A stretch of DNA of 64,000 nt from Mesorhizobium sp. 131-2-1 (GTDB taxonomy: Bacteria; Pseudomonadota; Alphaproteobacteria; Rhizobiales; Rhizobiaceae), in NCBI RefSeq assembly GCF_016756535.1, contig NZ_AP023247.1, positions 558,001 through 622,000 on the forward strand, in the 5' to 3' direction. Below are positions 24,543-28,058 of this stretch, one piece after another. The notes under the pieces are model-generated. The model saw only the letters and a list, made by a program, of their open reading frames with translations, searched no databases and was not told the origin of the DNA. How positions within the stretch are numbered: position 1 is the stretch's first letter; each line of letters begins with the position of its first letter. Position numbers and translations under genes: made by a program.

Positions 24543-25634
24543 TCAAGCAGCGCCCTGGCGGCTGGCGAGCATTTCTCGCTTCACCGAGCGGCGCCATTCG
24601 ACGGCGCCGGCAAGGCCGTGCAGCACCGTCTCGGTGGTCGCCCAGTCGATGCAGCCGTCAGTGATGCTCTGGCCATAGACCAGAGGCTTGCCGGGCACCA
24701 CGTCCTGCCGGCCGGCGACGAGATTGCTCTCGATCATGACGCCGATGATGCGCTCGTCGCCAGCCGCGACCTGGCCAGCCACGTCGGCCGCGACCTTCGG
24801 CTGGTTCTCCGGCTTCTTGGCGCTGTTGGCGTGGCTGACGTCGATCATCAGCCGCGGGGCGACGCCGATGCGAGCGAGCTCCGTAGCTGCAGCATCAACG
24901 CTCGCCGCATCGAAGTTGGGCACAACGCCGCCACGCAGGATGACGTGGCAGTCCTCGTTGCCGGTGGTCGCGGCAATCGCGCTGCGGCCACCCTTGGTCA
25001 CCGCCATGAAATGATGCGGCTGCGCGGCCGACTTCACCGCCTCGGCGGCGATCCTGAGATTGCCGTCGGTGCCGTTCTTGAAGCCGACCGGGCAGGACAG
25101 GCCCGACGCCAGCTCGCGATGGATCTGGCTCTCGGTGGTGCGCGCGCCGATGGCGCCCCAAGCGACGAGGTCGGCGATGTATTGCGGCGTCGTCATGTCG
25201 AGGAACTCGGTCGCCGCCGGCAGACCGAGATTGTTGACAGCCGACAAAACGTTGCGCGCCATGCGCAAGCCCTTGTCGATCTTGAAGCTGCCGTCGAGAT
25301 CGGGATCGTTGATGAGCCCCTTCCAGCCGACCGTGGTGCGCGGCTTCTCGAAATAGACGCGCATGACGATCTCGAGCCGGTCGGCCAGGGCCTCACGCAG
25401 CGCCGCCAGACGGCTGGCGTAGTCCACGGCGGCGACCGGATCATGGATGGAACAAGGGCCGACGATGACAACAAGTCGATCGTCGGCCCCCGTCAGGATG
25501 GAATGGATGGCGTTGCGCGAGGCGGCGACGGTGCGCGTCGCGGTGAGTGATCGCGGGATCTCGCGCATCACCTCGTCCGGCGTGCTCAGGACTGTGAGTT
25601 CTCTGACCCGAAGGTCGTCTGTGGTGGTCAACAC
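24543..25634 (-). CDS. aroG: 3-deoxy-7-phosphoheptulonate synthase, class I (DAHP synthase)
   Basis: The 363-residue protein matches class I-alpha DAHP synthases such as E. coli AroG (350 residues). It has the PEP-binding GPCSIHDP (residues 59-66), RVYFEKPRTTVGWKG and the metal ligand region MIDVSHANSAKKP. It condenses PEP and erythrose 4-phosphate, the first step to Phe, Tyr and Trp. The start is GTG at 25634 with AGGAG 9-10 bases upstream. A longer reading frame to 25721 passes through a terminator hairpin and is rejected. An aromatic leader peptide lies upstream. Confidence 0.9.
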   Translation of the reverse strand: MLTTTDDLRVRELTVLSTPDEVMREIPRSLTATRTVAASRNAIHSILTGADDRLVVIVGPCSIHDPVAAVDYASRLAALREALADRLEIVMRVYFEKPRTTVGWKGLINDPDLDGSFKIDKGLRMARNVLSAVNNLGLPAATEFLDMTTPQYIADLVAWGAIGARTTESQIHRELASGLSCPVGFKNGTDGNLRIAAEAVKSAAQPHHFMAVTKGGRSAIAATTGNEDCHVILRGGVVPNFDAASVDAAATELARIGVAPRLMIDVSHANSAKKPENQPKVAADVAGQVAAGDERIIGVMIESNLVAGRQDVVPGKPLVYGQSITDGCIDWATTETVLHGLAGAVEWRRSVKREMLASRQGAA

Positions 25635-25670
25635 GGCTTTCTGCTCCTGGTTTAGGAGACCTGCCGGCTG

Positions 25671-25701
25671 AAAACAAAAAAGCCGCCAGGTCTGGCGGCT
25701 T
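25671..25701 (-). terminator. attenuator terminator upstream of DAHP synthase
   Basis: On the minus strand AAGCCGCCAG and CTGGCGGCTT form a 10-bp perfect stem with a 2-nt loop (25680-25701). A TTTTT-G-TTTT tract (25671-25679) follows, a textbook intrinsic terminator. It lies 37 bases before the start codon, inside the transcribed leader, so it must be conditional. Confidence 0.85.
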
Positions 25702-25724
25702 GTCGGATTTTTGATCTGCAATCT

Positions 25725-25805
25725 TCAGATCGAGCGCAATCCTCCCGCCGCCAGCGAGCTGCTAAAGTACCAATACGTGGCGGACAAGTTGATCATGCGG
25801 CTCAT
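25725..25805 (-). CDS. aromatic amino acid leader peptide (Tyr-Trp-Tyr-Phe) of the DAHP synthase attenuator
   Basis: ATG at 25805 opens a 26-codon frame ending in TGA at 25725-25727. Codons 11-14 are TAT TGG TAC TTT (25775-25764), encoding Tyr-Trp-Tyr-Phe. CTG GCG GC (25754-25747), just downstream, is identical to the terminator's 3' arm and complementary to its 5' arm. A CCGCCA at 25783-25778, before the aromatic codons, can pair with the same segment, so all four classical attenuator strands are present. No strong ribosome-binding site is seen before the ATG; the ATG at codon 4 is an alternative. Confidence 0.85.
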   Translation of the reverse strand: MSRMINLSATYWYFSSSLAAGGLRSI

Positions 25806-25905
25806 ATAGTCGATGCGGGGGCGTTTGTCACTACTCCGGGGCCGTCGTCTAAAAATTGAGGGCCGCTTCTCGCGACTTAGCCAAAACCCATGTACGCTGG
25901 GCGGC

Positions 25906-27976: not shown

Positions 27977-28058
27977 GAATTGTCCTTTGAGGGTGGTTCT
28001 AAAACATGTCCGCGCCTGTCTGGCGCGGACGATTTGGTTTATCCCGTCGTGACGCCCG

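Follow-up and report, generated by a model that had tools for sequence, protein, structure and literature searches.

A probable ribosome-mediated attenuator with a mixed aromatic codon run ahead of the class I DAHP synthase gene in Mesorhizobium and its relatives

The window analyzed here is a stretch of 64,000 nucleotides from Mesorhizobium sp. 131-2-1, and the whole arrangement that concerns us lies on its minus strand. Read directly from 25850 to 25600, the DNA carries, in order, a promoter, a leader open reading frame (ORF), an antiterminator, a terminator with its T-tract and a gene for a class I DAHP synthase. The promoter (25804–25831), predicted from sequence, consists of GTGACA (25831–25826), a 16-nt spacer and CTATAT (25809–25804). 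The leader ORF, MINLSATYWYFSSSLAAGGLRSI (25725–25796), has 23 codons followed by TGA and includes the putative sensor codons TAT TGG TAC TTT (25764–25775), which specify Tyr-Trp-Tyr-Phe. Segment 1, CCGCCA (25778–25783), is a possible protector that pairs with segment 2 when the whole leader is folded. Segment 2 (25738–25754), the 5' strand of the antiterminator, comprises CTGGCGGC (25754–25747) plus GGATT and lies within the leader ORF. The shared strand, segment 3 (25692–25709), is AATCC plus GCCGCCAG (25699–25692) and can pair either with segment 2 or with segment 4, which is again CTGGCGGC (25689–25682). The intrinsic terminator formed by segments 3 and 4 (25671–25701), identified by hairpin scan, folds and compensating changes, has a perfect 9-bp stem (25701–25680) with a loop of four and is followed by the T-tract, whose end at 25671 is 36 bases 5' of the GTG start codon at 25634. 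A preliminary description had noted the ORF, the aromatic codons, the hairpin with its T-tract and the four segments, and on direct reading each was found where it had been placed.

The structural gene (24543–25634, minus strand, GTG start, 363 amino acids) is preceded by a Shine-Dalgarno-like AGGAG (25644–25648). Its product is assigned to the class I DAHP synthases (aroFGH type): the protein scores 518.5 bits against TIGR00034, for which the cut-off is 173.2, and matches PF00793. The AroG-specific equivalog cut-off was not reached (531.1 versus 568), and the best-scoring solved sequences include entries for phenylalanine-regulated DAHP synthases, for example 1gg1 and 5cks. The next long ORF past the gene is convergent, so the leader and the class I gene look like a monocistronic unit. 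Elsewhere in the window, a hairpin of 9–10 pairs (28007–28031) has T-containing tails on both strands and is perhaps a bidirectional terminator. The same genome also holds a class II DAHP synthase gene (G000:C1:3338533-3339843), as do all 55 alphaproteobacterial relatives checked. The earlier proposal that the leader tunes entry into the shikimate pathway therefore stands in part: a DAHP synthase does lie downstream, but it is not the sole point of entry, and the attenuator would set a second isozyme. The class II gene was considered as another target of the leader and rejected. No aromatic leader was seen by eye in the stretch upstream of it (L114), and a search of the window genome with the leader model gave a single strong match (E 3e-24), the next being at 0.125.

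The class I gene occurs in 136 of 146 genomes of the genus. Upstream stretches were read for 72 of the 136 (the 30 best matches, window genome included, 40 divergent ones and two others, with four partial matches skipped) and for 48 genomes from other genera and families, giving 120 with enough upstream sequence. All 120 (72 of the genus, including the window, and 48 others) have an aromatic leader ORF and a terminator. Conservation of the aromatic run among relatives, which the preliminary description had put forward as a check, is thus evident. Within the genus, the sequence from segment 2 through the stop codon is nearly invariant. Leader folds have z-scores of -2.5 to -6 relative to dinucleotide shuffles, and these, together with recurrence in every relative with enough upstream sequence, place the arrangement beyond chance. 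Leaders were called by a script that took ATG-initiated ORFs of 15–45 codons ending near the terminator and chose the one densest in aromatic codons; where several candidates were possible, it is biased toward aromatic ORFs. The script missed L106, whose parts were set by hand, and the duplicates L074–L076 were dropped. L119 stops at a contig end, and its leader was found on another contig of the same genome. A larger set of 191 leaders was made up of the 120, six genomes of family f35, the other contig of the L119 genome and 64 of 66 leader-bearing named loci (see below); overlap removal between the two collections was limited to two recognized repeats. A script for terminators found one in 190 of the 191, missing that of L233.

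The preliminary description gave the leader peptide 26 codons. An ORF of that length does run from an ATG at 25805 to the TGA at 25727–25725, but its start codon, the first of two in-frame ATGs, lies partly within the -10 box and is missing in relatives such as L015, L028 and L035. The start that relatives conserve is the second ATG, at 25796; it gives 23 codons and is kept where the first is lost. It lies 7 nt past the -10 box, so the leader RNA is probably leaderless, with a predicted 5' end at or near this ATG. In a promoter scan, the best-scoring -35/-10 pair ended 6–9 nt 5' of the leader ATG in 168 of 191 leaders, and in 26 of 190 with the scan anchored 50 nt upstream. The predicted placement of the promoter argues against a transcription start downstream of 25750. 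In the main texts of papers on start sites and small ORFs in Bradyrhizobium and Methylorubrum (PMC4842269, PMC5082802, PMC9320726), no passage on aroG, DAHP or attenuators was found, one reference title excepted. In L010, L012, L023 and L030, the -35 box of the leader abuts the stop codon of an upstream ORF resembling a short-chain dehydrogenase, whereas about 330 bases separate the two in the window.

Covariation was assessed in an alignment of 60 sequences (12 from the genus and 48 others) by five measures, each compared with 500 shuffles. For the 3:4 terminator, 96.3% of cells were paired and 14 were double-change cells, against 2.1 in the shuffles; changed pairs numbered 3 versus 1.4 (reached by 17 of 500 shuffles) and pair types 7 versus 5.5 (reached by 56 of 500). 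For the 2:3 antiterminator, 80.5% of cells were paired, double-change cells numbered 41 versus 22.0 and the covariation score was 0.161 versus 0.087; none of the 500 shuffles was as high on any of these three measures. In the same alignment, changed pairs (6 versus 5.3) and pair types (18 versus 17.8) did not rise above the shuffles for 2:3. Paired cells, double-change cells and the covariation score can be inflated by relatedness, and it is the counts of changed pairs and pair types that are least affected. All five 2:3 measures dropped when the partners were slid by 1–3 columns. The 1:2 helix forms in the minimum free energy fold of the whole window leader, but in the alignment it showed no covariation above shuffles (2 double-change cells versus 2.0) and scored higher after a slide of +3 columns; with covariation counts at shuffle level, a role as a conserved protector is not supported. 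The alternative pairings proposed in the preliminary description are thus upheld for 2:3 and 3:4, which are kept with compensating changes (2:3 on three of five measures), and for 1:2 covariation lends no support. Taken as a duplex, 2:3 was better than dinucleotide shuffles at the 5% level in 68 of 72 genus leaders, 33 of 55 others and 43 of 63 named ones. It was not so in 46 of 190 leaders, and for five of these misses (L144, L167, L168, L171 and L172) the script had likely shortened segment 2 at a shifted-frame TGG inside it.

Natural variants show how the segments change. In L104–L106 and in L143 and L144, segments 2 and 3 change together while segment 4 is unchanged, and the terminators of these leaders then use G-U pairs or a mismatch. 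L143 and L144 have the same segment 2 nucleotides read in two frames, owing to a one-base difference just behind an intact, in-frame aromatic run; the leader region of these two lies at about 1430–1760 on the minus strand of the loci. This frame difference indicates that behind the aromatic run it is the RNA that is conserved and not the peptide. A similarly shifted peptide is seen in the Devosia leaders L167, L168 and L171 and in the Hyphomicrobiales leader L172. The linked changes in segments 2 and 3, the statistics for 2:3 and the stepwise folds described below all point to an antiterminator that is mutually exclusive with the terminator.

The effect of a translating ribosome was calculated by taking its edge to lie 12 nt downstream of the first base of the codon in the A site. 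Stepwise folding of the window leader gives 1:2 plus the terminator for the complete RNA, 2:3 when only the part downstream of the Phe codon is free, and the terminator once more when the free RNA begins midway through segment 2. The calculated terminator probability was 0.99 with the RNA free and 0.00–0.03 with the ribosome before the run. Within the run, the four A-site positions (Tyr, Trp, Tyr and Phe, in order) gave 0.00, 0.18, 0.49 and 0.02, and the codon after the run gave 1.00. A pause before the aromatic run is therefore also predicted to antiterminate, and selectivity must come from the positions of pausing. Averaged over 190 leaders, the terminator probability was 0.96 for free RNA, 0.54–0.63 with the A site on any of the five codons preceding the last aromatic one, 0.58 on the latter and 0.99 on the codon that follows. 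When averaged over the aromatic codons of each leader, it fell below 0.5 in 85 of the 190; in the other 105, the finished terminator was favored at equilibrium, so that antitermination there must rely on 2:3 forming first. For the stage that precedes synthesis of segment 4, the mean probability that segment 3 is held was 0.89–0.93 across the six codons that end with the last aromatic one (0.89 there) and 0.23 three codons past it. We used this averaged curve because the per-leader "last codon holding segment 3" is broad at a threshold of 0.5 (67 of 190 leaders at +11). By this calculation across 190 leaders, the sensor codons are so placed that segment 2 stays accessible while a ribosome is paused on them and becomes covered once it moves on.

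We propose the following sequence of events. Transcription would start at or next to the leader ATG at 25796, and the peptide would be translated from a leaderless RNA. A shortage of charged tRNA for Tyr, Trp or Phe would make the ribosome pause in the Tyr-Trp-Tyr-Phe run; segment 2, just ahead of it, would pair with segment 3 as this emerges, the 3:4 terminator would not form and the gene would be transcribed. When all three are plentiful, the ribosome would cover segment 2, the 3:4 hairpin would form and transcription would stop at the T-tract. Termination is likewise predicted for a leader that is not translated.

The codon content of the run indicates which amino acids might be read. Phe codons are present in the run of all 191 leaders, Tyr codons in that of 189 (L206 and L222 lack them) and Trp codons in 165. 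At least four aromatic codons fall within eight in 190 of the 191; the exception, L118, has Phe-Tyr only, and the order and the codons vary. By group, Trp is in the run of every leader from the genus (72 of 72) and from the Xanthomonadales (10 of 10), of 73 of the 83 from other Alphaproteobacteria and of 10 of the 25 from Betaproteobacteria; the single unplaced leader lacks it. In these counts, named loci are classed by record title (L170, titled Mycobacterium, being counted with the Alphaproteobacteria), and use of the densest eight-codon window causes borderline Trp codons to drop out (L216, L234) or to enter (L196). A leader without Trp does not mark the presence of a second DAHP synthase, an idea we rejected because class II occurs in all 55 genomes checked, with or without Trp in the leader. 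Among the 468 Phe codons of the 191 leaders, many of which come from close relatives, TTT outnumbers TTC by 371 to 97; the corresponding figures for six genes of the window are 7 and 74. This preference could raise sensitivity to low levels of charged tRNA-Phe, or it could reflect constraints on the RNA. The preliminary suggestion that one leader senses all three aromatic tRNAs is borne out at the level of codon content, from which we predict a response to each amino acid.

Sensing of Trp, in the genus of the window, is in our judgment reasonably probable. The competing possibility, which we hold to be somewhat doubtful, is that the same mechanism effectively senses one or two amino acids, Phe and perhaps Tyr, and that the Trp codon is tolerated or minor. 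The near-universal occurrence of Phe (191 of 191) and Tyr (189 of 191) would fit this, as would the 26 runs that lack Trp. A quick tree built from 61 class I proteins requires at least four changes in the Trp state, though its well-supported branches force only one. The aroR leader ahead of aroF in C. glutamicum is a relevant case; it contains adjacent Phe-Tyr-Phe codons and has been interpreted as ribosome-stalling attenuation (PMC11802643, PMC4046766), and, as described, it responds to the availability of Phe and not of Tyr despite having codons for both (PMC11802643). Against such narrow sensing, Trp is retained in every run of the genus and of the Xanthomonadales while neighboring positions swap Phe for Tyr. 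This pattern suggests that Trp is kept for a reason, an argument weakened by close relatedness within the genus. A more radical alternative does away with sensing altogether: the leader would be translated, the 5'-UTR terminator would be constitutive and the aromatic run would be incidental. The equilibrium fold of untranslated leaders does favor the terminator (the mean of 0.96 given above), but the dense aromatic runs noted above for 190 of 191 leaders (though the script favored aromatic ORFs), a downstream gene whose product makes an aromatic precursor and the finding that the last aromatic codon is the last place where segment 2 is predicted to be free make this very improbable.

Outside the genus, the class I gene is sporadic, occurring in 12 of 247 genomes drawn from the family, 39 of 297 from the order and 14 of 385 from the class (draws that include some members of the genus). 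A covariance model of the leader gave strong matches (E <=3e-11) in 14 of the 385 class genomes, and these are the same 14 that have the class I gene; 13 of the 14 leaders were part of the model, and the cut between strong and weak, from 3e-11 to 4e-5, was set after viewing the list. At E 0.01, 65 of the 385 genomes match; the best weak match (E 4e-5) is partial, and most weak matches span only the terminator end of the model. In family f35, the 11 genomes (of 110) with the leader are also those with the gene, and six of them were not in the model. A search of a phylum draw with the leader model matched 19 of 219 genomes. In each of the five that were new, the class I gene adjoins the leader, and for four of them a simple ATG script recovered the leader ORF. 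The gene thus adjoins the leader in all 11 matching genomes newly met in these two later draws. A leader-only search in the family of genome G1024 matched 2 of 39 genomes, both already in the collection.

Named genomes were scanned by way of the enzyme, using the best 80 of 591 relatives among the matches listed. The leader was found in 66 of these 80 loci (E <=1.8e-5), lying about 460 nt upstream in L236. By record title, the bearers include Devosia, Kaistia, Bradyrhizobium, Mesorhizobium, Methylosinus, Caulobacter and Leisingera, as well as Bordetella, Achromobacter, Burkholderia, Caballeronia, Massilia, Cupriavidus, Xanthomonas, Dyella and Rhodanobacter, so that the range extends to Betaproteobacteria and Xanthomonadales. 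Two of the 14 misses have short upstream sequence (157 nt in L193 and 52 nt in L230). The remaining 12 loci have the gene and enough upstream sequence and yet no match to the model (L205, L212, L217, L219, L229, L232, L235, L239, L240, L243, L245 and L246). The class I genes of L170 (Mycobacterium sp. KBS0706), L205 and L232 are 69–80% identical to an alphaproteobacterial query; their records, titled Mycobacterium, Melainabacteria or Planctomycetaceae, are possibly mislabelled or contaminated, and L170 has the leader too. The tree of the 61 class I proteins crosses families. It joins the genus to g524 of f35 (98%), puts g539 of f35 inside f50 (95%, 94%) and sets g30 and g106 of family f1 beside f112 (90%); this is a quick tree, and some of its branches are weak. 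The leader type appears to follow the gene tree, which suggests that leader and gene have moved together between lineages.

We give very little credence to the view that the stretch mainly yields a trans-acting small RNA or a functional peptide, as with rnTrpL and peTrpL of S. meliloti, the cis switch being secondary: near invariance from segment 2 to the stop codon within the genus and a probably leaderless RNA, like rnTrpL as described (PMC7298713), are in keeping with it, but the peptide behind the run is not conserved, L143 and L144 reading segment 2 in two frames, and in draws where both were searched for, strong model matches come only from genomes that hold the gene. It is very likely, in our assessment, that a classical ribosome-mediated transcription attenuator controls the class I DAHP synthase. 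The attenuator reading draws on the parts, their conservation, the compensating changes, the linkage to the gene and the calculated geometry, and from these we infer the start site, the termination and the response to amino acids. Our confidence is not higher because two covariation measures do not support 2:3.

The leader shares its logic of regulatory codons, antiterminator and terminator with the Phe_leader family of Rfam (RF01859) and with the pheA and trp attenuators of E. coli. The window scores 23.7 bits against Phe_leader, for which the gathering score is 55. One difference from the E. coli trp leader is that segment 2 lies inside the leader ORF here, unlike trpL, where it comes after the stop codon. 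No Rfam family was found at its gathering score in the window, nine relatives or ten named loci, and the sub-threshold candidates (Phe_leader, RNAI, BjrC1505, RcsR1 and isrK) were rejected, all being far below theirs. With no Rfam match in the window or in these 19 relatives, the leader is probably unannotated in many genomes. Among alphaproteobacterial systems, the trpL/rnTrpL leader of S. meliloti is described as a ribosome-dependent attenuator whose leaderless RNA starts at the leader AUG (PMC7298713, PMC10117765). Our leader resembles it in being alphaproteobacterial and, by prediction, probably leaderless; trpL, as described, differs in having consecutive Trp codons and in controlling trpE(G).

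Aromatic leaders ahead of DAHP synthase genes are not new in principle, given the account of aroR. Likened by description only, aroR and the present leader both encode a peptide with neighboring aromatic codons ahead of a DAHP synthase gene; aroR belongs to a different phylum, and no Trp codon appears in its description. A further predicted element, uORFC-13-1, precedes aroF in 24 sequences from Acholeplasma and environmental samples and is described as a uORF with at least one Phe codon plus a terminator (PMC8632094). Like our leader, it has a Phe-containing uORF and a terminator placed before a DAHP synthase gene; its description includes no mixed aromatic run. Attenuators have also been predicted for aroF in Shewanella and for aroAI-alpha-Y>tyrA in Vibrio (PMC2659441, PMC1173090); these precede a class I DAHP synthase of the Tyr type, and no leader peptide figures in their descriptions. 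Two loci from Enterovibrio and Photobacterium, L243 and L246, gave no match to the leader model. In the parts of the openly licensed literature covered, and among the matches listed, no description was found of this leader ahead of a class I DAHP synthase gene in Alphaproteobacteria or Betaproteobacteria, and an earlier prediction is possible. What we describe is best regarded as a widespread variant of the ribosome-mediated attenuator, with a mixed aromatic run that usually includes Trp, a segment 2 inside the ORF, a probably leaderless RNA and linkage to one enzyme family.

A broader interpretation, on which we consider the evidence evenly balanced, is that an ancient attenuator common to Alphaproteobacteria, Betaproteobacteria and Xanthomonadales acts as a three-input OR gate on the first-step enzyme of the shikimate pathway, the second of two isozymes in the 56 alphaproteobacterial genomes checked. 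On this view, codon changes would edit its amino-acid alphabet, Trp having been acquired or dropped on more than one occasion, against an RNA switch of constant design and spacing that travels between lineages with its gene. We do not rate it higher because the well-supported branches force only one change in the Trp state. If the leader works as predicted, many bacteria that live in soil or with plants would set their entry into the shikimate pathway partly by a single RNA switch that reads several charged tRNAs; in E. coli, the corresponding role is attributed to the repressors TyrR and TrpR (PMC5343134). Natural leaders with and without Trp codons could reveal how a mixed leader weighs its inputs, and the presence of the switch would concern breeders of strains that produce aromatic compounds.
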